In this document: positions 5,287 to 30,680 of the stretch, piece after piece | How positions within the stretch are numbered: the first letter of the stretch is position 1 | Layout of the letters: every line of letters starts with the position of its first letter | Virus record (IMG/VR): IMGVR_UViG_3300044733_000736 | Span: 1-35,412 of that record | DNA from: a virus | Length of the DNA: 35,412 nt | Strand: one strand, 5' to 3' | Translations under genes and position numbers: made by a program | The notes under the pieces: generated by a model | The model's database searches: none | Told to the model about the DNA's origin: nothing | What the model saw: the letters and a program-made list of their open reading frames with translations, nothing else

Positions 5287-5289
5287 GTT

Positions 5290-5529
5290 TTATAGACCGT
5301 TAAAGCTCGCGAAGGTAACTGTATCGGTGCTTCCGTTGCCTTCGTCAATAGCGCCCTGCAACTGACCTAACATTTCATTGAGGCGACCTAAGTCGGCACG
5401 CGACACGCTTTTACCGTTCAGCGAGTAGCTCTGATTGAGCAAGCAAGCCTCGATTGCGGAGACCACTTTGGTTTTTAACGCGAGCAAAGTCGCTTGCTCA
5501 ATACCGATGAAAGGATTGTCGAGTGCCAT
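5290..5529 (-). CDS. gpW-like head-tail joining protein
   Basis: A small 79-residue protein with the gpW-type layout: a helix, a short beta turn (NGKSVSRADLGRLNEML) and a second helix. gpW binds the portal after packaging and prepares the head for the connector. It lies directly upstream of portal, the lambda W-B order. I chose ATG 5529; the longer frame from GTG 5541 adds only four residues and has no ribosome-binding sequence. Size, motif and context agree. Confidence 0.75.
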   Translation of the reverse strand: MALDNPFIGIEQATLLALKTKVVSAIEACLLNQSYSLNGKSVSRADLGRLNEMLGQLQGAIDEGNGSTDTVTFASFNGL

Positions 5530-5552
5530 GCAATAACGCACGGCGTGTCAAA

Positions 5553-6152
5553 TTAGACAGATACTGTTGATGGTGTAAAACGACCATCCTTGCGATAGCA
5601 GTCCGGCAATTTGAAATCAATTTTAGCTCCTTTCCTGCTATTAAGTGAAAATGGCAAAACCTGCAAATTGCGATGACAATGAGAGCCTCCGGCAGCTAAA
5701 GGAACGATGTGATCGACCGCGTGTCTGATGCCGGTGCAATAACTTACTCGATTTGCAATCTTGTAAAAACCATCAACGACCGATCGCCATGAGTCGGTCG
5801 GAACTGCTTTCATTTGTCTGGCTCTCCTAAGTTCTTCGACTGCTGTGCATTTATCCCTGTTTGCAGCTTTCCAACGCCTAATATTTTCAGCCGCTTTCAT
5901 AGGATTCTTTTTGAGCCATGAAAGGCTTTGTTCGCGTCTTTTTAATAGATTTTTATCTCTATCGTTTTTTCTCCAAACCTTCATTGCGTCTTTGTTTTTT
6001 GCCCTCCACGCCTTAAGTCTATCGTTCTTTAATTTTCGCATTTCTGCAAATTTCTCGGCTGAAACCCAGTATTCGTAGTCAATCTTTTTTTGATAACACC
6101 AGAACACCATGCCGTCCTCTCTAGTGTGACCCTGCTTTTGCTTTTCATTCAT
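5553..6152 (-). CDS. HNH endonuclease inserted between terminase and gpW
   Basis: The protein has 199 residues. The C-terminal half holds an HNH core: DH at 147-148, the GGSHCHRNLQ segment with N162, and N171/K174 in SLNSRKGAK. The N-terminal 130 residues are highly basic and helical, likely DNA binding. The start overlaps the TerL stop by 8 bases. The gene is clearly more A/T-rich than its neighbours (A/T runs around 5840-6080), which suggests separate acquisition. Free-standing homing endonucleases invade this spot; alternatively HNH proteins beside terminase can take part in cos cleavage. The isolated base composition makes me prefer a homing-type element. Confidence 0.88.
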   Translation of the reverse strand: MNEKQKQGHTREDGMVFWCYQKKIDYEYWVSAEKFAEMRKLKNDRLKAWRAKNKDAMKVWRKNDRDKNLLKRREQSLSWLKKNPMKAAENIRRWKAANRDKCTAVEELRRARQMKAVPTDSWRSVVDGFYKIANRVSYCTGIRHAVDHIVPLAAGGSHCHRNLQVLPFSLNSRKGAKIDFKLPDCYRKDGRFTPSTVSV

Positions 6153-7968
6153 ATTGGGATTTGCTCGGCGTAAATCTAATAATACCAGCGATTGTTGCCA
6201 TACAAAGCATCATTCCAGAAGTATCAAGTCCATGATTAGGTGCGTTGCTTTTTACCTCACGCCATTCAAACACGCCTGTCCTAATCTCAATCTTCGACTC
6301 GCCGCGCAAGTGTTCTAGGTAAAGCGCGTTCACATCGTCCGGCAATTCCCAGCGCAGGTCGCCTTTTCCTTCCAGCGCGATCTGTAAAACGTCCTTAAAA
6401 TAATCGCCCGACCAGTCATAGTAGTAAACGTCACCGCCTCGATAGTCGCTGATGCGTGGCTCGGAGTGCGGGAAGTTAATCAGCGTCCCGCTGTTCTCAT
6501 CGCGCATCGTCCAAGTCTTGCGACCGTGACCACGCATCCCGCGCCAGCCGAACTCAGCGCAATCGCGGTCAACCTCTGCCGGTCGATAGCCACGATCTTG
6601 CGTCGTGCAAGCATCCGCGACCTTGTATCGTATTTGCAAAGCACGCAGTTGATCGCGAGTCTCGACCCGACCGAAATATAGTTGCCGGTAGCGCGGCCCA
6701 GTTGACGAACTGAACGCCCCGATCTCAGCCCACCAGTGATCCTGCTGACGGTCGATTGCCATGAAGCGGATCGTCTCATTCTCGACCGGCTGACCCTGCG
6801 CGTAATCCTCGACCTTGTAGCCACTTGACTTGATCAGGATGTTCACCGCCTTGCGCTCAACAATCCACGGACGCGCCTCGCGCTTGGTTCTAAATTCAAT
6901 CTTCATACGCTCGTCACCGTTGCGAAGGTAATTGTTTTCGGCCTCGCAGAACTCCTCGACCAGAAACTGCATTGGTCGCGTGACCAGCGCCTCGATCCTA
7001 AAGCTCACGACCTCCTTCGGTGCGTCCTTACGCTGCGAAATGTAATGACCTGTATTACGCCAGTGCGCTCTTGTCATGTCCGTATCCGGCTGTTCGTGAC
7101 CGCAGTTGATGCAACGGAACCTAGCCGAGTCTGCCGCCTTTTTGACATCCCAAGTTTCGTCATCGCGCTGCGCGGTGCGATCCCAGACCACGCCACCTCG
7201 CCGACCGTCCTTCACCAGCGGAGGCTGATCGAAGATAATCGGATGCGGTTGCTTGCACTCTGGACAAAGCGCGTGCCATTCCTGCTGGTTGCCTGTGCGG
7301 TAGCTTACGTCCTCGACGTTGCCTGTCTCCGCGTCCATGACCGGCGCTTGTGACACGTTGTAAATCTTGGAGCGCCCGACCTCCTCGAATTTACTGACGC
7401 GAGCGATCGCGTGACCGTAGACTTCTTGCCATTTCGGTAACCAAATCTCGTCGTTGACCTTGTAACGGATCGACTGCGATTGCTGAGTCGAAAGGTTCGC
7501 CGTGTTCATGGTTAGAAAGAAACCACCGAAATAAATGTCGGTCGTCGTTCGCATCGGCCCAACTCGCGGCAGTAATCTTGCAACCGGCTTGCACCTTTCG
7601 AGTAACGGATTGAGTCGAGACTTCGCGTGCTTCTCGATCATCTCGTCGGTCTGCATCGTCCACGAGATCGGCCCTGCGTCGTTAGCGATCAGCCACGGTA
7701 TCCAGATGTCAGCGACAAGCGTGCCGCCGATCTGCACCGCCTTGCGGAAGTGGACACGCCGGATCAGCGGGTCTTGCAGCGCGTCGAAGATCGGGATGAG
7801 CCACGGCGTGATCCGCACGTTGAATGGGCCAGCGGTCGCGTAAGACTCCGGCAGGATGATGTGTCGCTTCGCCCAGTCATAGATCGTCGAACTGTCGCGC
7901 TCCGTAAATATGAAATCGGAGAGCAGCGCAGTTTGTTTTTTATAGCTCATCGAGGTCGCCATCGTCAT
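6145..7968 (-). CDS. Terminase large subunit, lambda GpA family
   Basis: ATP-driven DNA packaging motor and genome-end nuclease (PF05876 type), 607 residues from ATG 7968. I chose this start because AAGGA sits 5 bases upstream; the longer TTG 7995 start would overlap TerS more. Visible elements, counting from this start: a deviant Walker A region (RKAVQIGGT near residue 75) that keeps the leading Lys but not the usual GK, an acidic Walker B-like NDEIW, a zinc-knuckle pair CPEC and CINC, and the nuclease-like MAIDRQQDHWW. GpA-type enzymes cut at cos sites, so a cos site should exist upstream. The gene overlaps TerS by 29 bases. Confidence 0.93.
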   Translation of the reverse strand: MTMATSMSYKKQTALLSDFIFTERDSSTIYDWAKRHIILPESYATAGPFNVRITPWLIPIFDALQDPLIRRVHFRKAVQIGGTLVADIWIPWLIANDAGPISWTMQTDEMIEKHAKSRLNPLLERCKPVARLLPRVGPMRTTTDIYFGGFFLTMNTANLSTQQSQSIRYKVNDEIWLPKWQEVYGHAIARVSKFEEVGRSKIYNVSQAPVMDAETGNVEDVSYRTGNQQEWHALCPECKQPHPIIFDQPPLVKDGRRGGVVWDRTAQRDDETWDVKKAADSARFRCINCGHEQPDTDMTRAHWRNTGHYISQRKDAPKEVVSFRIEALVTRPMQFLVEEFCEAENNYLRNGDERMKIEFRTKREARPWIVERKAVNILIKSSGYKVEDYAQGQPVENETIRFMAIDRQQDHWWAEIGAFSSSTGPRYRQLYFGRVETRDQLRALQIRYKVADACTTQDRGYRPAEVDRDCAEFGWRGMRGHGRKTWTMRDENSGTLINFPHSEPRISDYRGGDVYYYDWSGDYFKDVLQIALEGKGDLRWELPDDVNALYLEHLRGESKIEIRTGVFEWREVKSNAPNHGLDTSGMMLCMATIAGIIRFTPSKSQYE

Positions 7969-8590
7969 TCGTTTCCTTGATCGCCTCCGTCTCAAAGTTC
8001 GCGATGTTATTTGCCAGCACCTCCCGAATCTCGTCGTGCATCAAGCGACCTTCCGCGCAAATCTCTGCCGCGTTCTTGCCAAGAAAACGCTGGCCGGATT
8101 CGACCTCAAGTTTGAGTCGCAGCAGCATATCCATTTTATGCGCCAGCGTTTTGAGCATCGCTCGGACGACCTCGGTTTCGACGACCTCTGCACGTTCGCG
8201 TGCGATCTTAAGATCACGAATCTCGATGTCGCGGCGCATCATTTGCGCTTTGAGTTCAGCGAGGGTCTTAGTCGCAACGTCCTTGCCGATCAGATTCTCG
8301 CCGCAAAACTTTTGCCATGCCGCTAAATTCTCACGCTTGCCGTCCTCGTGCTTTGCCGGAGCGTTCGCAAACCGATTCCGTGCGTCGTAGATCGCTTGCC
8401 GCGTTAGACCGAGTTCCCTTGCGAGTGTGCTTAAATCTTTAACCCAGCCGTCAGATTTCTCGTTCTGATATTCGTTGAGCGCCTTGCGCTCAGAACCAGT
8501 CAGCGTCTTGCCAGCCTTAAGTTTTGTCGCGATGTTAGCGACGTTGGCGCGTGCTAGGATTTCTGCGGGTGATTGCGGGGTGTTGGTCAT
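7940..8590 (-). CDS. Terminase small subunit-like DNA-binding protein
   Basis: A 216-residue protein directly upstream of TerL. A helix-turn-helix is visible at about residues 52-73 (DLSTLARELGLTRQAIYDA), followed by a long charged helical stretch (about 110-200) suited to oligomerisation and TerL contact. Small subunits recognise the packaging site and stimulate the TerL ATPase. The start overlaps the methyltransferase stop as ATGA. The call rests on the HTH, the size and the position; I see no family-specific signature. Confidence 0.78.
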   Translation of the reverse strand: MTNTPQSPAEILARANVANIATKLKAGKTLTGSERKALNEYQNEKSDGWVKDLSTLARELGLTRQAIYDARNRFANAPAKHEDGKRENLAAWQKFCGENLIGKDVATKTLAELKAQMMRRDIEIRDLKIARERAEVVETEVVRAMLKTLAHKMDMLLRLKLEVESGQRFLGKNAAEICAEGRLMHDEIREVLANNIANFETEAIKETNDDGDLDEL

Positions 8591-9750
8591 GTAATCCGAT
8601 TTTCAAGCACGGCTTTTTTGCCTGTAAGATTTTCCCAGCGTTGCACGATCACGTCGCAGTAGGCTGGACTGATTTCCATGCCGTAACACTTGCGGCCCAG
8701 TTGCTCAGCAGCGATGAGCGTTGTGCCGGAGCCTAGGAATGGGTCGTAGACAATCCCACCAACAAGGGATAGCAATTCGACAACAAGCTGAACCGGCTTT
8801 TGATTAGGATGAACACGGCTTTTTGTGTCTGCGCCTTGCATTCCGTGATGCCCAGACCAAGTTATTCTAAACACGCGGCGTTTGTGTGCATGTTTTGACC
8901 AGCAAAGTTCAAAACAATTCCCTGCAACACTGTCAAGATTCATGCCCGCGTCGTTCCAACGCTTGTCCCACACGAACCAACCGCCGCCGTCTGGCAACCC
9001 GTGCCTATAATAATCTGCACCCCACCAAAATTGTGATTCGCAATGAGGAGTCGTCTGCATTGCGGCGATCGCCACGCCTGTTGATTCGTCGCCAATAACC
9101 GCATTGAACCTAGCGCCTGTTTTGCGGTGCGAAGGGTCGGCGAGAAACATGCCGTCAAAGTGTGTGTCCACGTTCATGCCATAAGGAGGGTCGGCGTGTA
9201 TTGCGCCGATATCTTGCCCGTTCATCAACCTCGCCACGTCATCAACCTTTGTCGAGTCGCCGCACATCACGCGATGCTCTCCAAGAATCCAGAGGTCGCC
9301 CGTCTTAGTGATCGGATCGACCGGCGTTTCCGGCACTTCGTCCTCCGTAATCACAGCAAAGTCTTTTGATATTTTTTCTAAATCGTCTTGAGCAAATCCA
9401 AGCTCTTCTAAATCAACATTGGCATCCGCAAGCGACTTTAAGACGCCTGCAAGATCGTCGCTCCACTCCGCAAGTTCCGCGCTCCGATTATCTGCAATCG
9501 CAAACGCAGTAGCCTCGACACCAATGAGCGCCGTTCGCACCGCCGCAATCTCCGTCCAGCCTAGTTCCTGCGCCGCCGTCATCGTTCCGTTTCCAGCGAT
9601 CACGATTCCCTTCGCGTCCACGACGATTGGTTTCTGCTGACCGAACTTGCGGAGGCTGGCTTTGATCGCGTCGAGGTTTTTACGGTCGTGCTTTCGCACG
9701 TTAGCCGGATCGAGCGAGAGGTCGGATATTTTTATGCGGTCGATTTGCAT
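8587..9750 (-). CDS. ParB-domain DNA methyltransferase (N4-cytosine/N6-adenine, beta class)
   Basis: A 387-residue fusion. Residues 1-100 form a ParB/Srx-like domain (LDPANVRKHD, then VIAGNGTMTAAQELG). The methylase follows, with catalytic DPPY at 187-190 preceding the SAM-binding DPFLGSGTT at 336-344, the order of the beta class. It methylates exocyclic amino groups; the target sequence cannot be read from the protein. No restriction enzyme is adjacent, so it is an orphan, probably protecting phage DNA from host restriction or marking DNA for packaging. It sits between the putative cos region and TerS. The start at ATG 9750 has an A/T-rich leader with no SD. Confidence 0.93.
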   Translation of the reverse strand: MQIDRIKISDLSLDPANVRKHDRKNLDAIKASLRKFGQQKPIVVDAKGIVIAGNGTMTAAQELGWTEIAAVRTALIGVEATAFAIADNRSAELAEWSDDLAGVLKSLADANVDLEELGFAQDDLEKISKDFAVITEDEVPETPVDPITKTGDLWILGEHRVMCGDSTKVDDVARLMNGQDIGAIHADPPYGMNVDTHFDGMFLADPSHRKTGARFNAVIGDESTGVAIAAMQTTPHCESQFWWGADYYRHGLPDGGGWFVWDKRWNDAGMNLDSVAGNCFELCWSKHAHKRRVFRITWSGHHGMQGADTKSRVHPNQKPVQLVVELLSLVGGIVYDPFLGSGTTLIAAEQLGRKCYGMEISPAYCDVIVQRWENLTGKKAVLENRIT

Positions 9751-9777
9751 TTGTAAATTTAGGTCGTTTGAAATTAG

Positions 9778-10032
9778 CTAGAAAACGGGACGAGGTCTCG
9801 TAACCCCCGACGTGTAAAAATTGTAAAAAGATTCCTTACCCCCCCTCCCCCATAGGCTTACGCAAGCGCCAAAAACACCTACCCTTCGGATTTTACCCCT
9901 AGCGTTTAAGCCTCGTTCCGTCGCCCTGACCTCGACCCCATCAGAAACGCCAACGGCTTCGATTCTAGGCCATCCGACGATTAGCGAGCCTCTCCAGACG
10001 CTGGGCTGGTTTAACGCGCCTAGGATGCTCAC
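9778..10032 (-). CDS. Doubtful small ORF over the putative packaging region
   Basis: An 84-codon frame starts at GTG 10032, overlapping the previous stop as GTGA. The translation (for example GRGGKESFYNFYTSG) has no recognisable domain, and the DNA below it contains a long G/C homopolymer-like run and tandem short repeats better explained as a cis-acting site. It may not be translated. Confidence 0.25.
   Translation of the reverse strand: MSILGALNQPSVWRGSLIVGWPRIEAVGVSDGVEVRATERGLNARGKIRRVGVFGACVSLWGRGGKESFYNFYTSGVTRPRPVF
9781..9860. other. Candidate cos/packaging site
   Basis: The sequence upstream of the terminase block holds three features expected at a cos site. An imperfect dyad lies at 9785-9807, with perfect arms ACGAG and CTCGT around GT. 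A tandem pair TGTAAAAAT/TGTAAAAAG lies at 9813-9829. A pyrimidine tract, CCCCCCCTCCCCC, lies at about 9839-9851. GpA-type terminases cut staggered nicks at dyad sites just upstream of the terminase genes. Location is inferred; no nick site is proven. Confidence 0.35.
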
Positions 10033-10463
10033 GCCTTGCCCTCGCTGATCGACCTAAGTTGGTCTGCTGAGGACATCTTGTCCTCGTGATGCTCGCTCAT
10101 CTCCCGATACTCGCTCAACAACGCGGCCAACTCAGGGAACACGAAGCCGATTCTTTTGACCTCCTGACCGAACTGCCAGTGCATCGCCTGCCTAGTGATG
10201 CCTCGCTCCTTAGCCAGCCTCTCATACGATTCCATTACCCCAGCCGTCTGACCTGATCCAAGCTCAGTCGCCAGCTTGAAAGCGTAGGGTGATAGGTCGG
10301 CCAGCGTCGCTAACCTCCGACACAGATCAGCGCCTGAGTTCAACTTGATCTCATCCATCTCGATGAGCCTAGCGAACACCTCGCTCGTGACCGTCGCGGC
10401 CTCGCTTGCGCCATCGTAGCTCATGCGTGCAACCGGCACGCTGTTGATCGTGTAGGTGATCAA
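10029..10463 (-). CDS. HTH protein of unknown role
   Basis: The frame encodes 144 residues from TTG 10463, which overlaps the upstream stop as TTGA; ATG at codon 14 is the alternative start. Residues about 80-105 (YERLAKERGITRQAMHWQF) look like a helix-turn-helix. The C-terminus is charged. It lies between the replication genes and the packaging block. It could be a regulator or a DNA-binding packaging accessory; nothing in the sequence decides. Confidence 0.6.
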   Translation of the reverse strand: MITYTINSVPVARMSYDGASEAATVTSEVFARLIEMDEIKLNSGADLCRRLATLADLSPYAFKLATELGSGQTAGVMESYERLAKERGITRQAMHWQFGQEVKRIGFVFPELAALLSEYREMSEHHEDKMSSADQLRSISEGKA

Positions 10464-10826: not shown

Positions 10827-11384
10827 TCACAAAGTTGCTGAGTATCGCTCGATGAGCATCATGCCGTTGTTTCGGTTAGTCGTGTAAACCAAGCGCCATT
10901 CGGAATGCGCCGTGAGCCAGTCCGTGATCGCTTGCACGATTCCCATGCCGCCATCCTCGCCGCGTTCACCGAACGTGTGCGTGTCGTGGAATCCAATCCA
11001 CTTACGCGCTCGATCTCCGTGCAGTCGCAACTCTTGCGTGACCTGCGCGTAGGTGTGCTGCGTGTCGATGAACAAAAAATCCGTTTCATCAATCGCAGGA
11101 ATATCGAGCGTGCTTGCGTGCGTGAATTTCCAATCAACAGTCGTGTTCGGTGCAAAAGCGTTATGCACGCCATGCGGATCATTCAGATCGTAACTTCTCA
11201 GCGTCGCGTTTTTATTCTGCTCAAGCGCGTTGAGAAAAGCTACGGTGCTGTGACCAGTCCGCACACCGAACTCGGTGACCTGATCGCACTGCGTTGCAAG
11301 AAATCCAAGCACCGGCAGATGCTCTGCGATATCGCTTTTCGATTCGCACAAACGTAAAAACAAATCATTTAACTTTCTTTGCAT
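10827..11384 (-). CDS. Class I SAM-dependent methyltransferase (Methyltransf_24-like)
   Basis: A 185-residue Rossmann-type methyltransferase. The SAM-binding glycine loop is TEFGVRTGHSTVAFL (about 37-51), followed by an acidic strand end (RSYDLND) and the later motif FIDTQHTYAQVTQE plus GFHDTHTFG. This resembles small O-methyltransferases of the CmcI/Methyltransf_24 type that act on sugars or small molecules, and unlike a DNA methylase there is no DPPY. The substrate is unknown. A link to glycan modification by the two phage glycosyltransferases is possible but unproven, because the genes are 15 kb apart. The ATG overlaps the end of the upstream gene by 20 bases. Confidence 0.8.
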   Translation of the reverse strand: MQRKLNDLFLRLCESKSDIAEHLPVLGFLATQCDQVTEFGVRTGHSTVAFLNALEQNKNATLRSYDLNDPHGVHNAFAPNTTVDWKFTHASTLDIPAIDETDFLFIDTQHTYAQVTQELRLHGDRARKWIGFHDTHTFGERGEDGGMGIVQAITDWLTAHSEWRLVYTTNRNNGMMLIERYSATL

Positions 11385-17529: not shown

Positions 17530-20500
17530 TCAACCCGACAGCGTCATGTCTGCGCTCTGACAATCAATCGTCGCGCCGCTGACCGTGCGGTATGCTTTGA
17601 TGGTATAAGAGTAGGAGACGTTCGCCGTCAGCCCCGTGTCAGCAAAACTCAAATTTTCGTTCGCCGAAGTTTCATACGCCGACAAATTAAAATTCGGGAA
17701 AAGTTTTATGACGGTTGAGTCGCGGAAAATTCTCACGGTCACGCCGGTATCTGCGACCGCGTCTAAGTTTTCCATCACGACATTCGCTACGACTAACACG
17801 ACGGTGTTCACCGGAGTTTTCGCCAACGTGACAACCGTAGACTGACCGCCGGAATTTAATCCGATGGTGCTGAACGATCCGCTGACCGAGGTCACTGCTG
17901 CACCGTTTGTGCCGTTAGTTCCGTTCGTGCCATTGGTGCCGTTCGTGCCGTTTGCACCATCTTCGACCAACTTCGTTACCGCAGCCCACTCGCCACTCGT
18001 GATCGTGTCGCTTGCAGTCGTGCTGCTCGCGGTCGCAAATGTAACCCAGCACGGCTGACCGTTCACCGTTGGTATGTATTGTGTCCACGGCGAGAGCGAT
18101 CCACTTAGCACGCCAGTTGAGAAAGTGAAGGTGAGCGTAGAACTTGGAACCGCAGGTGATGTTGCACTGCGCTGATAAATTAAAGCCGACGCGACGTTCA
18201 ATCCTGCCGCACCCGCCGCACCCGCTGCGCCATTCTCCGCGAGGATCACCGCAGTCGCCCACTCTGCTGCCGCGATCGTATCGGTCGCGCTCGTGCTAGA
18301 TGCAGTCGCCGTGCAAACGTAAATTGGATCAGTGCCTGCGGGAACGGTCTGCGTGTATGATCCAAGCGATCCGCTGAGCAAGCCGGTCGAGAAAGTAAAG
18401 GTTAGCGCACTCGCTGGCTGCGCTGGCTGCGTCGCGCTGCGCTGATAAAGAAAAGCAAAGGCGACGTTCGCGCCGTTTGATCCCGCCGCGCTCGCTTGCG
18501 CTGAAGCCACGGTTGACGCCGCTGATAAATTGCCGAGCGTGTCCTCTGCCTTCACAAAATAAAAGAAGGTTGTGCTGGCCGTGATCACGACATCGTTTCG
18601 ACCGCTGGCGAAACCGTTCCAGATCGTTGTTGATGCCGCAAAATTATTCGTCGTGGCTCGATATAAATAATAAGTAAAAATGTTTGGCTCCGTGTTGTCG
18701 TCCCAGTCGAGCGCGATCAGTCCCGCGCCTGATGCTGCTACTAGATTAGCGGGAGCCGATGGCGCGGTCGTGCTGCCAGTCACGTTCACGCTGCCGGTCA
18801 GGTAGCTTGTGCTAACGCCGAAGTAACTCTCGCCATAAAGCCGGACGTTATAGGTCAGACCGATCTTGATGTCGCCGCTGATGAAATCCTCGGTCGCCGT
18901 GCCTTCGTTGCGCGACCATGTGATGTAAGTCGTCGAGGCGCTCGGCTTATATTCCATCACGACCATGCCGCCGGACTGAATGAACTCGTCGCTCGGTGCG
19001 ACCCAGTTCGCCTTGATGCGCGAGGTTACCGTGCCGTCCTCTTGGATCAATTGCGTCGTGCCGTTCGCCGTTAGCGTGAGCGAGGTCGGAGCCGATGGAT
19101 TACGCGGGTCGATCAAGTTCGTGTTAGGCGCATCGGCGACGTAAATCTCGTCTGCCGTCGTCCACGAGTAAACGGTCGACGCGGTTTCTTTGAGCGTCAT
19201 GTCAACGTAGAGCAACGGTGGTTCGCCCTCGGTTGCAAAGTGCCACTCGATTACCTCAAACACTTTCGCGCTCCAGCCAAGTTTTGCGTTCGTGATCATC
19301 ACCGTGTCGCCTGCGCGAACCTGCATTGCTTCTAATCGGAAGCGTGCGCTGAAGGTAATCTCCTCGCGAGCGCGGCGCAACTCGATCACCGAAAGACGTT
19401 GAGCGCACGAGGGCGAAGTCGTGAACGGCAACACCACGTCGCGGAAGTAAACGATGTTGTTGTCCTCGCTGACGTAGGTCGCGGATGTGACCGCTGGAAA
19501 GTCCGTGACCTGCCAGTCGTTCGACTCGCTAACGTAAACGCCTTTGACCGAGTTAACGCGATCGCGTGCGCTGATCCGAGTCTGCACGTTGAGTGGGCCG
19601 ACGAAATGTTTCTCGGAAAGCGTAACGGTAGGCGTGCGATAGCTCGCTGCATATACGACTATCTTGCCGCCGGAGTAAGCAATCATACCGCCCATTGCGC
19701 TGAGTAGCTTGCCGATGTTCTCATCCGGCGCTGCGCTCGTAATGATCACGCCGTTAGCCTCGTAACGGTTTTCGTAGACTACCGGCGACGCTGGCAGAAT
19801 CTGCACCTGCTCGTCGCAAACATTTGCCGCAACCGTGATCGAAGTGTCATCAACCTCCGCGCTCGTCATCGCCATGCCGATGCTCGTGTTCAATAAATAA
19901 TCACGCACCGCGAGCGCAGGATTCGCAGAGTAAACCGTTGTCGTCGTGCGCGGGTCATAAACCTTTTTTCCCTTTACGACGCACGAAATATTCGGGATGC
20001 CGCCGACATAGATTTCAGCGTCCCATGTCAGTTTCGCGTAAATGTATGTAATGCCGTCTAAGCGATGCGCGGAAGTCCATTGCCCTGTGTCAGCGGTTAA
20101 GCCTGTCGTCGCAGCAATTAACGCCGCGTCAGCCGTCTGCGGAGTCGTTCCAAGATGCTTAACGATTGAAATCTTGTTAAGATATCTGCTGCCGCCATCG
20201 ACCGTGTTGCCGGAGCCTGTAATAATTTTCTCGTCGTTGAGATAAACGTCGCCGAGTTCTTCGCACTCATGACCGGCAATCGCAATCACGAGATGCAGGA
20301 ACTCGTTTTTTGTGCCAGTCGTCGAGATGTAAACGATCACGCCTGACGCTTTGCATTGACCGTAAATCACTTGCCTCGCTGAGATCGGCGAGCGCACCAT
20401 TTGCGAGCGAGTCGAGATTGATGAATCTGAAAAGCTCGGAGCTTTAGGCGCGAGCAGCTTTGACACCGCCATCGATGCAGCAGTAACCGCGACAAACTTC

Positions 20501-20574
20501 AGAATGGAAGCAACCGTAATTGCTTTTATTGCGACAACAATCTTAGTGAGTAAAAGGGGTAATGCCTGTGGCAT
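17530..20574 (-). CDS. Tail tip / host-specificity protein, J-like
   Basis: A 1,014-residue tail-tip protein. The N-terminal 45 residues are hydrophobic, and SARQVIYGQCKASGVIVYI near 65 is typical of gpJ-like tip-attachment proteins. Fibronectin-III-like segments follow (for example APSAPANLVAASGAGLIALDWDD near 605). Two homologous units of about 85 residues (LYQRSAT...FTFSTGLLSGSL at about 700-785 and 786-870) are each joined by Gly-rich linkers. The second ends in a collagen-like (GTN)n run at about 17908-17964, and a beta domain closes the protein. gpJ forms the tail tip and contacts the host receptor. It is the last gene of the tail block. Confidence 0.9.
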   Translation of the reverse strand: MPQALPLLLTKIVVAIKAITVASILKFVAVTAASMAVSKLLAPKAPSFSDSSISTRSQMVRSPISARQVIYGQCKASGVIVYISTTGTKNEFLHLVIAIAGHECEELGDVYLNDEKIITGSGNTVDGGSRYLNKISIVKHLGTTPQTADAALIAATTGLTADTGQWTSAHRLDGITYIYAKLTWDAEIYVGGIPNISCVVKGKKVYDPRTTTTVYSANPALAVRDYLLNTSIGMAMTSAEVDDTSITVAANVCDEQVQILPASPVVYENRYEANGVIITSAAPDENIGKLLSAMGGMIAYSGGKIVVYAASYRTPTVTLSEKHFVGPLNVQTRISARDRVNSVKGVYVSESNDWQVTDFPAVTSATYVSEDNNIVYFRDVVLPFTTSPSCAQRLSVIELRRAREEITFSARFRLEAMQVRAGDTVMITNAKLGWSAKVFEVIEWHFATEGEPPLLYVDMTLKETASTVYSWTTADEIYVADAPNTNLIDPRNPSAPTSLTLTANGTTQLIQEDGTVTSRIKANWVAPSDEFIQSGGMVVMEYKPSASTTYITWSRNEGTATEDFISGDIKIGLTYNVRLYGESYFGVSTSYLTGSVNVTGSTTAPSAPANLVAASGAGLIALDWDDNTEPNIFTYYLYRATTNNFAASTTIWNGFASGRNDVVITASTTFFYFVKAEDTLGNLSAASTVASAQASAAGSNGANVAFAFLYQRSATQPAQPASALTFTFSTGLLSGSLGSYTQTVPAGTDPIYVCTATASSTSATDTIAAAEWATAVILAENGAAGAAGAAGLNVASALIYQRSATSPAVPSSTLTFTFSTGVLSGSLSPWTQYIPTVNGQPCWVTFATASSTTASDTITSGEWAAVTKLVEDGANGTNGTNGTNGTNGTNGAAVTSVSGSFSTIGLNSGGQSTVVTLAKTPVNTVVLVVANVVMENLDAVADTGVTVRIFRDSTVIKLFPNFNLSAYETSANENLSFADTGLTANVSYSYTIKAYRTVSGATIDCQSADMTLSG

Positions 20575-24464: not shown

Positions 24465-24896
24465 TTAGTCTTGGGTTAAGTAGATGCAGTTAAAAGTGTG
24501 ACGAGCGACGCCCCAGCGCCGATCTTCATCTGGCTCGATCACATAATCGACCGTTGTCAAATGTAGGTCGGAGCAGACGCCACCGAGGGTGGGATCGGCT
24601 AAAACAGCAGCCTCGACCGCTGCGCTGCCGGTATCGAATAGGTCGTCGATCAGGTAGGTTCCGCTTTCTGCGATGAAGTAATCGACCATCAAGGAAAGCT
24701 GCCGATATTGCACGCGATTCGATGGCGCTAGTGATCGCACCTCGATTTGCTCTTGCACGGCGTAGACCGCAGCCGACGGAAAACTGACGCTGGCAATCGT
24801 GTTGTTACGACCTTTAAGAATGTTAGCGGTGACAACTACGCTCGCGCCAGTCAAAGCGTTAGCAGTAGCGGTGCGGATGTTTGTGCGGATGCTCAT
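24465..24896 (-). CDS. Tail terminator / minor tail protein (gpU-like)
   Basis: One hundred forty-three residues, alpha/beta. Typical order position just upstream of the tube gene; the segment GGVCSDLHLTTVDYVIEPDE followed by DRRWGVARHTFNCIYLTQD closes the protein in the manner of tail terminator proteins. It would cap the tube and connect it to the head. It shares one base with the upstream gene (stop and start at 24896). Confidence 0.72.
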   Translation of the reverse strand: MSIRTNIRTATANALTGASVVVTANILKGRNNTIASVSFPSAAVYAVQEQIEVRSLAPSNRVQYRQLSLMVDYFIAESGTYLIDDLFDTGSAAVEAAVLADPTLGGVCSDLHLTTVDYVIEPDEDRRWGVARHTFNCIYLTQD

Positions 24897-25774
24897 TATT
24901 TATTGTAGTCGATTGTTCCATCGCCTCTAACTTTCGCGAATCCTAAATTGACCGCCTTGTTTCCATAGATGCGGTTTATTTTTTGTAAGGTAATTTTTTC
25001 TCTAGCGAGTAAAGCTCCGTCAACATAACGCTGAATGTTAGGAATCGAATTTTTCGTAGCTGTTGCAATCACATATGGGTTTGGCCCAAAATTGAAAGAC
25101 ACGCGACCAGATGATCTAGCGTGCTTCCTAATCCACGAAGGCACTCTGATTCCACACGCAATAGCAGCAGCAGCAAATCCGGACTTGTTCCAACCGACTC
25201 TGTTTTTTAAGATGCCGAAATAAGCATCTGCGCTTTGTTTGCTAACCCACATTTGATCTTGCACCCTCCATCGACCAATCGTGTTTTGCGATACTTGCCC
25301 AGTTCTGCCATATTTATTCCGATATAGTTTTCTAAACTTAGCCATTTCTCCTTTACTCGCTTCTGGGCGCCAGAATTTTGACATAATCTTCACGCTTCTG
25401 CTGCTATCATTATTTCCTAATCTTACGCGCAATGTTTCATGCGTGCGATTGCGCGGTTCTCTCAATCCTGATTCACCAATCGTTTGAAAAAGACCAATGG
25501 AACTACTCTTCGCCATTTTTGATCCACCGAACAAATCACTCTTGATCGCGTTGAATCCTTGCTCTTGTGCAGCTTTAGTCATTCCCGCGCCTCGCGGTTG
25601 TTTCTCTGGTTTTATATCCCCCTTTCCAGTCGTCGGAGGAATAATCAGCATTATATTTCTAGCAAGATTACCGCCCTCGGCTCTGATAACTTTGCCAAGA
25701 TCAACTTTTGCCGTAGCAGCTAATTGAGCAAGAAGCCCATTCAATTTTGCGGTGTTGAAATCAACCGTGATCAT
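24896..25774 (-). CDS. Tail completion / head-tail protein (gpZ- or gp10-like)
   Basis: From ATG 25774 (ATGA overlap with the connector stop) 292 residues; the frame could begin at 25786. N-terminal helix NTAKLNGLLAQLAATAK, the basic middle KPEKQPRGAGMTKAAQ, and a long C-terminal part. Many siphoviruses encode such a basic protein between the connector and the tail terminator, with a role in finishing the tail or joining it to the head. It is longer than the usual 150-200 residues. The assignment rests mostly on gene order. Confidence 0.6.
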   Translation of the reverse strand: MITVDFNTAKLNGLLAQLAATAKVDLGKVIRAEGGNLARNIMLIIPPTTGKGDIKPEKQPRGAGMTKAAQEQGFNAIKSDLFGGSKMAKSSSIGLFQTIGESGLREPRNRTHETLRVRLGNNDSSRSVKIMSKFWRPEASKGEMAKFRKLYRNKYGRTGQVSQNTIGRWRVQDQMWVSKQSADAYFGILKNRVGWNKSGFAAAAIACGIRVPSWIRKHARSSGRVSFNFGPNPYVIATATKNSIPNIQRYVDGALLAREKITLQKINRIYGNKAVNLGFAKVRGDGTIDYNK

Positions 25775-26091
25775 ATATTTTTGCACACGTCAATTTCACA
25801 ACCAGTCCCCTCGGCGTCTAACGTCACGCGCTCGACAAAGTAAGTCACGCCGGAACGCAGCAAGGTCTGCGACACCGCCGGAGTCGTTGCAATTTGGTCA
25901 GTCGTTAAGAAAATCGTGAACTTAGAATCCGCACGACGCTGATCCTCGAAGTCATCGAACGCATTACGAGCCGACGACCAGATGCCGGTCACCGTGTTGC
26001 CTTGGTAAGTGAACGTGATACCAGCTTGATCGAGGATGCCGAGATAGTCTGCGGCAAGCTGGGTGGGATCGAAGTCTCGGACGCTGCTCAT
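25771..26091 (-). CDS. Head-tail connector (gpFII-like)
   Basis: From ATG 26091, which forms ATGA with the glycosyltransferase stop, 106 residues (MSSVRDFDPTQLAADYLG). Beta-rich middle with FTYQGNTVTGIWSS and the strand LLRSGVTYFVERVTLDAEG, consistent with small head-tail adaptor proteins. Its position, at the head-to-tail gene boundary, supports this. A longer frame from 26118 has no start support. Confidence 0.65.
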   Translation of the reverse strand: MSSVRDFDPTQLAADYLGILDQAGITFTYQGNTVTGIWSSARNAFDDFEDQRRADSKFTIFLTTDQIATTPAVSQTLLRSGVTYFVERVTLDAEGTGCEIDVCKNI

Positions 26092-26771
26092 ACCATTGCT
26101 CCGTTTGTAAGAAACCACTTAGCGTGCAATTCTGGGCGATTCGCTTTAATCCACGGCTCGGCATCGTCTAAGCATTTTTTGACATCATCGCCGCAAGTCT
26201 GCGACCCGACGTGATGAACGTAAGCGCGGGAAATATAGTGATTCCGTTTCATGTCCAAGCATTGCACGTCGTCCGAGAACCAGTTGATCGGTGGGAAATC
26301 CACCCAAGCGCTGCGGGTAACCTGCGCGAAGATCGGCGCGATCACATCCGTGACAATTATTTGCGCCTCCGATTCGTATCTCAAAAAGTTAATCTTACCG
26401 ATTCCGCAGCGTATGTTCTGCGTGCCTCTTGCGTAATCAGATCGACACGCAACAATGCCGTGATCGCCAAACTTTTCTTTGATGAAAGAAACGTCGCAAG
26501 CGAGTGTCCTCCATGTAGTTGGAGTCAAAACGATGTCGTCATTTGCAATCACGATTTCATCGAAGCGTGCAAACGCAATCGCTGCCGCCGCGTTGTAAGC
26601 ATCGCCAAAATTGCGTGCGTCATTCGGCAGGTTAATCGTTTGGTGATTCGGCAACTTCAAGTCTGAGCCAGCGATATAAACCACCACATCACGCGGAACG
26701 TATTCCGAGATTGAGGCCAGCATGACCGGCAAGCACTTGCCGTGCGTCGTGCAAATTACAATCGCTTTCAC
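26088..26771 (-). CDS. Family 2-like glycosyltransferase (GT-A fold)
   Basis: Two hundred twenty-seven residues. N-terminal Rossmann-like strand (MKAIVICTTHGKCLPVMLAS) and the acidic metal-binding motif IVIANDDIVL with N77-D78-D79, preceded by NFGDAYNAAAAIA, typical of GT-A enzymes that transfer a nucleotide-sugar residue. The donor and acceptor are unknown. It is fused into the virion operon: ATGA overlaps on both sides, to the larger glycosyltransferase and to the head-tail connector. A virion protein is therefore a plausible acceptor, although host surface sugars are also possible. Confidence 0.75.
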   Translation of the reverse strand: MKAIVICTTHGKCLPVMLASISEYVPRDVVVYIAGSDLKLPNHQTINLPNDARNFGDAYNAAAAIAFARFDEIVIANDDIVLTPTTWRTLACDVSFIKEKFGDHGIVACRSDYARGTQNIRCGIGKINFLRYESEAQIIVTDVIAPIFAQVTRSAWVDFPPINWFSDDVQCLDMKRNHYISRAYVHHVGSQTCGDDVKKCLDDAEPWIKANRPELHAKWFLTNGAMV

Positions 26772-28288
26772 CGAATGAGCGTGATCCTTTCCACCGCCTC
26801 CAAGACCTCGCAGTCCGGCTCCGATGCGGTGAACACCTCGGCTTGCGCTCGATACTGTGCGCGAGAAATTATGCGCTGATCGACCTCCTTGATCTTGATC
26901 CTTAGTGGCGTAGAATTGAGGTCACGACCTGAGATCAAATCAAAAAGTTTTGAATCCCATTGCAACGCTGGCGCGTAGTTATCCCGCACCTCGATCAGTA
27001 GATTCCCACGCGCTTTCTTGCTGGCTGAATTGAGCGCGTCGTCGAGCGTTCCTTTCACGTTAACGTGCTGGAATTGCTTGACCATTACCGTGCTGGTTTC
27101 GTCGTCGGAGTTGATTGCAAAGATATGCTCAACGTGCGCCGGATCGGTCGCGGCATTTAGCCAAGCGTCACGGCAAGCCACCGCGTTTGAGGTGTTATCC
27201 TTGGTCGCGTGCAGAAGCGTGATCCTTGGCTCCTCTGTTTTATGGCAATGCATTTGGCGTATCTCAGCGAGCGTCGTGAAGCCGGAAAGCCGTGCCGCAC
27301 GCGCTGCCAAATCCCAGCCAGCCCAGTCATACCATTTGCGCTCGTGCGTCCACGGTCGATCCGCGACGCTCGGCACATCGAGCTTCAGCATAGTCTCAGC
27401 CCAGTAAGACGCTCGCTTGGCATCCTGCCTCTCAAAATGCAATAGTATCATAGTAGCAATCGCCTCGCGACACCAAGGGAAAACGCCGTGCGCTTGCAAA
27501 GCATACTGCATCGCCTCGCGGTTGATGCCGGAAATACGCGCTAAATTTAGCAACACCTCGTAACGGAACGAGCTTTCTAGATTCGGGAACGAGATCGCGA
27601 TCTTGCCGAACTGCTCTGCCGCCGGTCGATTGCCGTCGCAGTAATGTTCTTGGTGAATGTAAAAGTATTGCGTTGCCGATTCCGCGACCGACTTGCCAAG
27701 AATCTTCAAGTTCCGCTTTCGGTTCGCTCGCTTGATCACGTTGGGCGAGTGTATCCAAACCGGCTGCTGCCAGTCCTCGTGCTTATCGTTAGCGAGCAGG
27801 AGCAGGTTCTCGTGAACGTCGTGATGCCAGCGGCGTCCGGCTTCAAAGGTTGATCGCCGGATAACGCGCTCGCGAAGCAGCTTCTTGTTTGAGCCTCTGA
27901 CATCATACGGACAGCGTGCCATTAGAACGTCGTCCTTGGCGCTTTTAAGCGATTCGCGGAACATACTAGTCCCCTCGATCAGATCGTCGCAGTCAGCCCA
28001 CAAAAGCCAGTCGCCTGTGCCTTGAGCGAACGCCGCATTGCGAGCGTCCGAGAACGAATCGACGTGCGGCCATTTTTGTGCGGTCAGAGTGTTGATGTAT
28101 TCCGAGAACAGGAAATCCTTGCCGTTCTCGCCGCACCACGCACGCGCCTTATCCACGGTGTCGTCCGGCTCTTGACCACCGATAGCTCGCACCAGCGATA
28201 GCTCATCAAAGATCGGCTCAAACGAATTGAGCATTTGCAAGATGTGTTCCGATTCGTTGCCGCAAATAACGCAGAGAGATAGGCGCAT
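26768..28288 (-). CDS. Large glycosyltransferase, GT2 with helical and second GT-like domains
   Basis: Five hundred six residues. Domain 1 (1-190): RLSLCVICGNESEHIL and SDARNAAFAQGTGDWLLWAD at 80-99 carrying the acidic metal site D99-C-D101-D102, a GT2 pattern. Domain 2 (about 200-340) is helical, TPR-like (LLNLARISGINREAMQYALQ). Domain 3 (about 350-506) begins PRITLLHATKDN and contains HIFAINSDDET, a second GT-A-like core that looks shortened. Multi-domain enzymes of this kind extend or initiate glycans. The gene follows the capsid terminator and is translationally coupled to the smaller glycosyltransferase. Confidence 0.78.
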   Translation of the reverse strand: MRLSLCVICGNESEHILQMLNSFEPIFDELSLVRAIGGQEPDDTVDKARAWCGENGKDFLFSEYINTLTAQKWPHVDSFSDARNAAFAQGTGDWLLWADCDDLIEGTSMFRESLKSAKDDVLMARCPYDVRGSNKKLLRERVIRRSTFEAGRRWHHDVHENLLLLANDKHEDWQQPVWIHSPNVIKRANRKRNLKILGKSVAESATQYFYIHQEHYCDGNRPAAEQFGKIAISFPNLESSFRYEVLLNLARISGINREAMQYALQAHGVFPWCREAIATMILLHFERQDAKRASYWAETMLKLDVPSVADRPWTHERKWYDWAGWDLAARAARLSGFTTLAEIRQMHCHKTEEPRITLLHATKDNTSNAVACRDAWLNAATDPAHVEHIFAINSDDETSTVMVKQFQHVNVKGTLDDALNSASKKARGNLLIEVRDNYAPALQWDSKLFDLISGRDLNSTPLRIKIKEVDQRIISRAQYRAQAEVFTASEPDCEVLEAVERITLIR

Positions 28289-28306: not shown

Positions 28307-28344
28307 TCAAAAACAGAAAGCCCCACGCAGTTAAGCGTGAGGCT
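28307..28344 (-). terminator. Intrinsic terminator after the major capsid gene
   Basis: On the minus strand arms AGCCTCACGC (28344-28335) and GCGTGGGGCT (28328-28319) pair over 10 bp with one wobble, loop TTAACT, followed by TTCTGTTTTTGA. It lies 25-60 bases after the capsid stop, so part of the transcripts should end here. The result would be high capsid and lower expression of the glycosyltransferases and tail genes. Confidence 0.75.
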
Positions 28345-28369
28345 CTGTTCACCAATTTAATTTAATAAA

Positions 28370-29335
28370 TTAACTGTATTGAGTGGTGACAAGCTGACCG
28401 GCATTGGAATTGACGATTTTCTCGGCAACATATTGCGAAGCGCGCACGATGTTCGATTTGATCGACTCCTCGCGGTAGGTGCTAACACCAAACGCAGGGC
28501 CATACTCCGACCAGTTCAAGGTAAACCCAGCGCCGCCGCCGAAGTAACCCGCGCTGCCCTCGGAGACTGAACCCACGAAGATGTAGGTATTCGCCCACGC
28601 ATTAGCGGCAGCGAACGCCACACCTTCAGGAGCCGAGTCATAGGAGGCGCGACCGACCAGCACCTCTTGCACGCCGAACACATCAGCCGCAGCCTGTGTC
28701 GAAGCGTTCAAGATCGTGTCGCTCGAAATGCCAGCGCCGCGTAAACGGTTCTGGAACTTCGTGCTGGCACGAATGCGCGTCCATACTGGGTAAGGAATGA
28801 CGACCTTTAGGTTAGACGCCGACTCACCCTTGGCGAGCAAGCGGTCAATGGCATCCTGCACGTCGAGACCTACGTCAAACGTGGCTAAGTTAGCGGTCGT
28901 GTAAGCCGTGCCAGAATTGGTCGCGGTGAACGTGCCGGAGTCAAAAATCTTCGCAGCAACGCGAAGCTCGTGACCAAGCATCAACTTGCGCTGAGCGAGT
29001 TTTGCGGCCATAACCTCGGCGTCGAAAAATCTCGATACGTCCAAACTCACCGTATCGTCTATAGGATTTTCCACACCGAATTCTTGGCATTGATAGGTTT
29101 CTTGATTGTAAGAGTTCGTCATGCGAGCGTAAGATGCACCGACCGCACGCTGTTTGATGTCGCTCTTGAGCAACTGACCTTCTTTGAGTTGGAAAGAAGG
29201 ATATTGACCGGCGCGAACAGGAACGTTCAGCACCGGCATGATCTTTGCCCCGATGAGTCCACTCTCCCATTCCTTGGACTGTTCGAGAACACCGGCGATA
29301 TCGCCACGAAACACTGCAGCAGAATTACTATACAT
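28370..29335 (-). CDS. Major capsid protein (HK97-fold type)
   Basis: Three hundred twenty-one residues. SNLKVVIPYPVWTRIRAS, FQNRLRG and the following ADVFGVQEVLVGRASYDS are the conserved P-domain region of phage capsid proteins, and GVSTYREESIKSNIVRASQ leads into the C-terminal strand. It assembles with the portal into the icosahedral shell and is processed or scaffolded by the protease gene product upstream. The start has no SD but the context AACTACCATG, shared with the holin. The gene is followed by a terminator. Confidence 0.93.
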   Translation of the reverse strand: MYSNSAAVFRGDIAGVLEQSKEWESGLIGAKIMPVLNVPVRAGQYPSFQLKEGQLLKSDIKQRAVGASYARMTNSYNQETYQCQEFGVENPIDDTVSLDVSRFFDAEVMAAKLAQRKLMLGHELRVAAKIFDSGTFTATNSGTAYTTANLATFDVGLDVQDAIDRLLAKGESASNLKVVIPYPVWTRIRASTKFQNRLRGAGISSDTILNASTQAAADVFGVQEVLVGRASYDSAPEGVAFAAANAWANTYIFVGSVSEGSAGYFGGGAGFTLNWSEYGPAFGVSTYREESIKSNIVRASQYVAEKIVNSNAGQLVTTQYS

Positions 29336-29348
29336 GGTAGTTTATAAA

Positions 29349-29699
29349 TTAAAGGTTACGAGGAAGGATTTCAACCACGGCATTCGCGTCAGACGCGGTG
29401 CTAAGTGATTTGCCAACGGTGACCGTGCCGGTGATGGCAACGAGGCCACCAGCGACAGCGAACAGAGTGTTGCCGACCGTTACTGGGCCAGCGAGCAAAG
29501 CGACTTTGATGGTATTGTTACCGAGGAAGCCAACGGTGACGTAGTCGCCGGAAGCTGCGTCGATTTGAGTAACGCCGTCAACAACACCGCCGGTAGCGCA
29601 AAGGCCAACGCCGAGGTTGCTGGAGATCGTCACGAGACGGAAAGCGGTCAAGGCTGAGTTAGCCAGAAACGTGCCGCTGTTAAGATATTGGGTAGACAT
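29349..29699 (-). CDS. Capsid decoration/cement-like protein (DUF2190 type)
   Basis: One hundred sixteen residues, beta-rich and Gly/Val/Thr-rich: GDYVTVGFLGNNTIKVALLA, then GNTLFAVAGGLVAITGTVTV. This resembles small capsid stabilisation proteins coded between the protease and capsid genes, as gpD in lambda. It would bind outside the shell. Start context ACTAATATG. Confidence 0.75.
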   Translation of the reverse strand: MSTQYLNSGTFLANSALTAFRLVTISSNLGVGLCATGGVVDGVTQIDAASGDYVTVGFLGNNTIKVALLAGPVTVGNTLFAVAGGLVAITGTVTVGKSLSTASDANAVVEILPRNL

Positions 29700-29711: not shown

Positions 29712-30680
29712 TTAGAGTTTGACGATTTCGCCAGACTGAACGCGGGCGCGATAGTCGGTGTATTCGGCAGAATGGTTTTTAACCGCGAACGAAATGGCAG
29801 CAGACTTGTTGCCCTTCAGCTCGACGGATTTGTCAGCGACGATTTGCTCGAAGCTGCGTTTGACTGCATCGGCTGGTTTAACAGCTTCAGCGGAAGCAAC
29901 AGGAGCAGCAGGAGCGCCGAACTGTTTGCTAAATTCACGGATGGCCGCGAGCGCACCTTCGTTAGCGGCGTTCGTGATCATGTCGTTCTTCGCTTTCATT
30001 TCAGCGACCTTCTCATCATCGGCTTCAACCTTACCGGCAGGAGCCATTGCGCTTTCCAGCTTGGAAAGGCGATCATTCATCGCCATCATAGCAGATTCAA
30101 TCATGCCACCGATGGACTTTTTATCATCTTCATTCATAGGATTATTATATTGTGGAGTGCCAGACGGTTCGTTCTTCGGCATCACGCTCTCAAGTTCCTT
30201 GAGTTTGCGACTAAAGAATCCGTCTGGATTGGCAGCGGGTTCGCTCACGAGGTCTACGGAGTAAATCTCAGAGCAACGCTGCAAAATGGTTTTTTTATCC
30301 GCGCCGACTTCACTTGGGCCGGAGAACGCAATCGAGAGACCGAACGTGTCGGGGATGCGCTGCGCGATTTCGAGGATGTAGGTGCGGTGCGGCGAGCTTT
30401 GCAGTAAGTGCAAATCGCCCAGCAACTTGTCGCCCTCGATCCGCATCGTGTCGATGTAGCCGATGATATCACCCGCACCGCCGGAGTGATCGAGTTTCAC
30501 CTTCAGACCGCCGGTATATAACTCGGCAGCGGTCTTAACCTGCTCAAGCGTCTTGCGATCAATCGCAACGCCGTGACCGAGGGCTGGGCCTACGGTAATG
30601 AGCGAAACGCCACGGATCACGCCAGCTTCGGCATCAATCTTGGAATCCGCTACGGCAGCAAATGAAATAATCGGGGTCAT
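29712..30680 (-). CDS. Capsid maturation protease fused to scaffold-like domain
   Basis: Three hundred twenty-two residues. Residues 1-160 form the protease: KVKLDHSGGAG with H65, DTFGLSIAFSG with S116, and IYSVDLVSEPAANPDGFF with D143, matching phage prohead serine proteases. Residues 180-322 are helical, acidic/basic, with a predicted coiled coil (IESAMMAMNDRLSKLESAM), like the scaffold part of lambda C/Nu3. An internal in-frame ATG at codon 182 (MNEDDKKSIGGMIES) could yield a separate scaffold but has no clear ribosome site. It is the first gene of the virion operon and lies next to the divergent promoter region. Confidence 0.88.
   Translation of the reverse strand: MTPIISFAAVADSKIDAEAGVIRGVSLITVGPALGHGVAIDRKTLEQVKTAAELYTGGLKVKLDHSGGAGDIIGYIDTMRIEGDKLLGDLHLLQSSPHRTYILEIAQRIPDTFGLSIAFSGPSEVGADKKTILQRCSEIYSVDLVSEPAANPDGFFSRKLKELESVMPKNEPSGTPQYNNPMNEDDKKSIGGMIESAMMAMNDRLSKLESAMAPAGKVEADDEKVAEMKAKNDMITNAANEGALAAIREFSKQFGAPAAPVASAEAVKPADAVKRSFEQIVADKSVELKGNKSAAISFAVKNHSAEYTDYRARVQSGEIVKL

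Follow-up and report, generated by a model that had tools for sequence, protein, structure and literature searches.

The window analysed here is the whole stretch of 35,412 nucleotides of IMG/VR virus record IMGVR_UViG_3300044733_000736, from an uncultured freshwater phage whose genome reads as that of a lambda-type siphovirus. A pair of minus-strand open reading frames, which we call GT1 (26768-28288) and GT2 (26088-26771), lies between its major capsid and head-closure genes. In the direction of this strand, the genes run from a protease candidate, assigned by position only (29712-30680), through a decoration-like protein (29349-29699) and the major capsid protein, which is the candidate acceptor discussed below (28370-29335; phrog_1005, 2e-34), to GT1, GT2 and a head-closure (Hc1-like) connector (25771-26091; phrog_82, 1.3e-5; PF05354, 1.6e-4), followed by a run of tail genes that ends with a homologue of the central tail fibre J (17530-20574). 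The portal, the large terminase and a possible small terminase occupy 3109-8590. This order, together with the capsid and connector matches, bears out the preliminary description of the locus, which placed two coupled glycosyltransferase genes between the major capsid gene and the head-tail connector. Nothing supports the actinobacteriophage context that the description had raised: the genome reads as lambda-type, and the sole hint of a host comes from a single metagenome bin of Betaproteobacteria. We found no prophage form of the phage, and scans of the window for tRNAs and Rfam families gave no matches.

Both junctions downstream of GT1 had been described as ATGA overlaps. This is correct for GT2 and head closure (26088-26091, minus strand), but the start/stop overlap of GT1 and GT2 (26768-26771, minus strand) is GTGA because the start codon of GT2 is GTG. 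The corresponding spacing is -4 in 78 of 78 relatives, and the GTGA overlap is predicted from the sequence to couple the translation of the two genes; the spacing between GT2 and head closure is -4 in 18 relatives and otherwise +2 or +16 nt. On the other side of GT1, the 81-nt gap that separates it from the capsid gene folds at -27.4 kcal/mol into a GC-rich, terminator-like hairpin followed by a T-tract (28309-28346, minus strand). The terminator reported earlier at this position is thus recovered by RNA folding, and a hairpin with a T-tract recurs after the capsid gene in all relatives folded, with differing stem sequences. It looks like an attenuating terminator, which would allow high expression of the capsid protein and lower expression of the enzymes.

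We compared both genes with their counterparts in one relative, locus L005. For GT1 we obtained a dS of 0.28 and a dN of 0.006 (dN/dS ≈0.02), and for GT2 a dS of 0.23 and a dN of 0.016 (dN/dS ≈0.07). Since these ratios are far below 1, GT1 and GT2 are real, constrained genes and, judged by such substitution rates, under strong purifying selection. The two genes are 97-99% identical between the window and L005 (99% for GT1), whereas the adjoining capsid gene is 91% identical (dS 0.62), which fits recombination moving the cassette. The gene that follows head closure (24896-25786) is just 29% identical to that of L005, a sign of mosaic exchange around the cassette; in otherwise close relatives, alleles of this gene switch between about 28-30% and 46-82% identity.

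GT1 encodes 506 amino acids from an ATG start. Its AlphaFold model (mean pLDDT 86) comprises an N-terminal GT-A catalytic domain (residues 1-180; 27749-28288, minus strand), helix pairs forming a TPR-like repeat domain (residues 183-350; 27239-27742, minus strand) and a second Rossmann-like domain (residues 354-505; 26774-27229, minus strand). The three domains attributed to this protein earlier are therefore present in the model, but the third is a truncated GT-A-like remnant without its catalytic motif, with RDNY in the window where homologues have SDDW. By contrast, the metal/donor motif DCDD of the first domain (residues 99-102; 27983-27994, minus strand) is among the residues invariant in an alignment of 17 divergent homologues and occurs in every distinct GT1 sequence tallied. 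On the window protein PF00535 (Glycos_transf_2) scores 22.4 bits (1.3e-4), just under the cut-off of 23.3 bits, and it exceeds that cut-off in the homologues of loci L061 (44.3 bits, 2.4e-11) and L180 (35.6 bits). Residues 1-341 also match phrog_13126, a beta-1,4-glycosyltransferase family (7.2e-13). The profile matches of the homologues and a GT-A model with a DXD-type motif place GT1 in the GT2/Glycos_transf_2 family.

Among solved proteins, a profile built from the 17 GT1 homologues retrieved one, GmaR (PDB 22ao/22ap; positions 3-202, E 2.5e-10), and hhalign gave a probability of 97.3% for GT1 against Listeria GmaR. In Listeria monocytogenes, GmaR is a flagellin O-GlcNAc transferase that also acts as an antirepressor; the proposed binding site for flagellin is its TPR domain (PMC9638930). 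The top Foldseek matches of the GT1 model were the peptide S-glycosyltransferases SunS and ThuS (2.1e-13), with TarS, SPY and O-GlcNAc transferase (OGT) among the lower ones; global TM scores were modest, at about 0.4-0.6. The profile match to GmaR and the best fold match to SunS/ThuS therefore indicate a protein acceptor for GT1. By homology and domain order, GT1 is classed from sequence and model as a GmaR/SunS-like GT-A plus TPR protein glycosyltransferase whose predicted role is to place the first sugar on a protein, and its helical-repeat domain likely binds the acceptor, by analogy with the domain order of GmaR (PMC9638930). One deposited record with a gmaR gene, OR848533.1 ('Listeria phage LM 4-14-1'; our L368), reads as the Listeria chromosomal motA-motB-gmaR-cheV region and probably entered the phage collection as bacterial contamination.

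Neither Pfam nor PHROGs gives a match for the 227-amino-acid product of GT2. Its motifs NDD, W(F/Y)SDD and HHVGSQTCG are kept in 150 of 151 homologues, and the DXD-like NDD (residues 77-79; 26535-26543, minus strand) is invariant in the alignment. Foldseek relates its model (pLDDT 65, moderate) to the GT-A enzymes TarS (2.4e-5), GnT-I and SpsA, with TM scores of at most about 0.5. The small GT-A enzyme of the preliminary description thus retains conserved motifs and a fold match in its favour, though no family match and a model of moderate quality, and we consider GT2 likely to be a GT-A glycosyltransferase. For the donor-site residues, proposed earlier as a check, the conserved DCDD of the GT1 GT-A domain and the DXD-like NDD of GT2 are candidates; the motif of the GT1 C-terminal domain is lost.

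GT2 homologues also form another lineage, with 54-65% identity to the window GT2, in phages of a different type (L089-L159 and others, e.g. L250:8001-8684). There the gene has no capsid link and belongs to an apparent early recombination/nuclease operon, among genes that we take by eye to be NinB-like, Ref-like and YqaJ-like. In L089 and L148 the early-operon GT2 adjoins two other glycosyltransferase-like genes. This lineage shows that GT2-type enzymes serve outside virion operons too, and therefore that virions are not a necessary setting for GT2 chemistry. One phage of this type, L153, encodes a dTDP-4-dehydrorhamnose 3,5-epimerase (9579-10130, minus strand; PF00908, 1.6e-73), a hint that its glycosyltransferase may use dTDP-rhamnose. 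As a general partner, dTDP-rhamnose supply was discarded, PF00908 being present in 1 of 26 records (L153).

The phage group with the window-type capsid gene is common in IMG/VR, but a search of 50,697 deposited phage records found no relative of the capsid gene. An IMG/VR search with the capsid gene alone returned 80 loci, and GT1 stands next to the capsid gene in all those with enough downstream sequence; in the three loci without a GT1 match the contig ends 0-740 bases past the capsid gene. When a second search seeded by a divergent capsid and other fetched loci were included, the capsid gene was followed by GT1 in all of the distinct loci whose sequence runs on for 1.5 kb or more (134/134), a sample biased in that part of it was fetched with GT1 or GT2 queries, and with which the 80 capsid-only loci agree. 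The gap between capsid gene and GT1 is mostly 70-145 nt and reaches about 760-880 nt where an extra gene is inserted (L171:7019-7699, L036:2253-2982, L015:3445-4129). The insertion in L171, the sole one tested, is an HNH endonuclease, and at this gap the virion operon may offer a site for homing insertions. In L361, the N-terminal domain of GT1 is matched twice after the capsid gene, possibly through a duplication.

The slot between GT1 and head closure is variable. It holds GT2 in about half of the relatives, and in the others methyltransferases of the Methyltransf_23 or Methyltransf_24/TylF type, Glycos_transf_2 or DUF5672 proteins and unassigned reading frames, the glycosyltransferase and methyltransferase genes forming about 19 arrangements. 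To the earlier question whether relatives keep the gene pair at this locus, the answer is yes for GT1 and, for GT2, yes in about half of them; close relatives simply devoid of both genes were not found, since none lacks GT1 and those without GT2 carry other glycosyltransferase or methyltransferase genes. With the cassette constant beside the capsid gene and its second half swapped, the particles are probably decorated with variable sugars. The small SAM methyltransferase at 10827-11384, earlier named as a candidate that could cap such glycans, is present in 2 of 20 relatives and weakly similar to a slot methyltransferase of the same Pfam, and we dropped it as a partner of the cassette.

The content of the slot follows the state of GT1. 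Forms of GT1 with 560-577 amino acids have a complete second GT-A domain with SDDW and SDNEF motifs, and in the long GT1 of L061 Pfam gives two Glycos_transf_2 stretches. Those accompanied by GT2 have 460 or 506 amino acids, and in these the motif of the C-terminal domain is lost (e.g. EDG, RDN) and its end is missing. Counted over distinct GT1 sequences with enough space behind them, GT2 accompanies 68 of 68 short and 0 of 57 long forms; the four 506-residue forms, in which the motif filter had scored a C-terminal motif through an unrelated SDDE, do lack the domain end. Since GT2 is found solely where GT1 has no second catalytic domain, it probably replaces that domain. It does not look like a split-off piece of it: hhalign detected no homology between GT2 and the intact GT1 C-terminal domain (3%). 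On the capsid tree the GT2 arrangement must have arisen twice, but the GT1 tree weakly unites the GT2-bearing forms (66/88), so that we rejected two fully independent gains as a firm reading; the pattern reflects either two parallel replacements or the transfer of one short-GT1/GT2 unit, and the counts of 68/68 and 0/57 do not represent independent events.

We put at about 70% the probability that the GT1-GT2 locus is a virion-protein glycosylation cassette in which GT1 primes a capsid or tail protein and a swappable second step follows. What we infer of catalysis, donor, acceptor, expression level and benefit is this. In the cytoplasm, GT1 would draw on a host nucleotide-sugar and attach the first sugar to a side chain of a virion protein soon after its synthesis. 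The GT-A domain of the enzyme would perform the chemistry, with the acceptor held by the TPR-like helices, as is proposed for GmaR with flagellin. The likeliest acceptor would be the capsid protein encoded immediately upstream, whose C-terminal tail contains Thr/Ser and would be the first candidate region for a sugar, a tail protein being possible. GT2, translationally coupled to GT1, is predicted to extend the glycan by the next sugar or to stand in for the lost activity of the second GT-A domain, and in relatives without it the second step would fall to the intact second domain of GT1, together with the glycosyltransferases and SAM methyltransferases of the slot, so that the surface glycans would differ. 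Within the same late transcript, the hairpin would hold expression of the enzymes below that of the capsid protein. Variation of the coat may help the phage against adsorption traps, grazers or phage-binding defences.

The preliminary description had favoured a virion acceptor, and the case for it has grown stronger with the homology to GmaR, the SunS/ThuS fold, the universal linkage to the capsid gene and the recurrences beside unrelated capsids described below. The position of the genes itself suggests a virion acceptor, glycosyltransferase genes occupying the interval from capsid to head closure in all relatives whose sequence reaches far enough. This position, where late expression is expected, also weighs against a different target. 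In that reading, which we regard as unlikely, the enzymes would act on the LPS/O-antigen of the host or on one of its proteins, for instance a pilin, at a late stage of infection or during lysogeny, and so block superinfection or alter the surface. Phage glycosyltransferases do commonly alter the host surface, as in gtr serotype conversion, and SAM methyltransferases occupy the same slot in relatives. Moreover, GmaR-like enzymes target flagellin, a bacterial surface protein (PMC9638930). However, gtr O-antigen conversion modules combine a membrane glycosyltransferase with a flippase (GtrA/GtrB), and the cassette has neither; no membrane segment was predicted in GT1, GT2 or the slot proteins (maximum 19-residue hydropathy 1.51), which fits a cytosolic acceptor. 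O-antigen conversion is thus disfavoured, and a host protein is a possible target.

That the glycosyltransferases instead act on hypermodified bases of the phage DNA, as protection against restriction, is very improbable. Glycosylated bases are known in T4-like and other phages, according to the part of PMC12619734 that cites Pyle et al. 2024, and one GT2 lineage sits in the apparent early recombination operon, sometimes near apparent DNA methyltransferases. Systems of this kind include a base hydroxymethylase/thymidylate-synthase homologue, but a profile search for that family (PF00303) found none in the window and 26 related records, with positive controls. In addition, GT1 is closest to polypeptide transferases, and the genes lie in the late head operon, outside the replication module. 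We give the slightest chance to the proposal that GT1, GT2 or both are no longer catalytic and instead take part in head assembly or act as protein-binding regulators, for although the GT1 C-terminal domain is degraded and GmaR moonlights as an antirepressor (PMC9638930), the N-terminal DCDD is invariant, the GT2 motifs persist in all but one of the homologues, and the swapping of different glycosyltransferase and methyltransferase families in the slot fits chemistry better than scaffolding.

In every relative with enough sequence, a group common in IMG/VR pairs its capsid gene with a GmaR/SunS-like glycosyltransferase and exchanges the follow-on enzymes. We are evenly divided on the broader statement that widespread uncultured freshwater siphoviruses carry an obligatory capsid-glycosylation locus, with a fixed primer and an exchangeable second module that yields swappable 'coat serotypes', and in which the primer lost its second domain after gaining a stand-alone replacement. 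If the acceptor is the capsid protein, the locus offers an enzyme family, a defined site and a prediction about a variable phage coat that can be tested, as well as a natural enzyme set for protein glycan engineering.

Virion glycosylation encoded in the head operon is a known kind of system, best documented for tailed phages in a few mycobacteriophages; as far as our searches show, the enzyme family, the constant post-capsid position and a modular slot tied to domain loss are new. GmaR shares with GT1 a homologous GT-A domain at the N-terminus and TPR-like helices after it, but has a linker and an antirepressor domain where GT1 has its second GT-A domain, and acts on flagellin. SunS and ThuS, the glycocin S-glycosyltransferases, share the fold and a peptide acceptor; they are 14-18% identical to GT1, act on a bacteriocin peptide and, unlike GT1, carry no second GT-A remnant. 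In the Corndog and Che8 systems, as at the window locus, the glycosyltransferase genes lie in or with the virion operon. The layout, which had seemed without precedent, does have one in Corndog-type (cluster O) mycobacteriophages, whose order is portal, O-methyltransferase, three glycosyltransferase-region genes, protease and capsid. Passages of PMC11600133 and PMC12363180 that cite Freeman et al. 2023 report that these enzymes modify capsid and tail tube. Several glycosyltransferases and an O-methyltransferase inside the head operon are common ground, but in the Corndog-type phages, which have a different host, these genes are flanked by portal and protease instead of following the capsid gene. 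By hhalign we detected no homology of GT1 with Catdawg gp34 or of GT2 with gp35 and gp36 (probability <1%), in comparisons with single-sequence partners that leave room for a weak relationship.

Further parallels come from two uncultured Caudoviricetes from Manatee Spring with a GT1-family enzyme in the head/packaging region. The podovirus ctKR88 has a capsid gene of another family, phrog_1328, and, one gene further on, that of a phrog_13126 protein, followed by more glycosyltransferases and methyltransferases; its relative L371 has a similar layout of reading frames. In the siphovirus ctf1B273, a GT2-family enzyme homologous to GT1 lies between terminase and portal, with further glycosyltransferases in the region. 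ctKR88 differs from the window in its capsid family, its longer chain of glycosyltransferases and its bigger cassette. Since glycosyltransferase genes stand beside unrelated head genes in ctKR88, ctf1B273 and the Corndog-type phages, their coupling probably arose more than once, and this repeated association of glycan and head genes argues for a virion acceptor.
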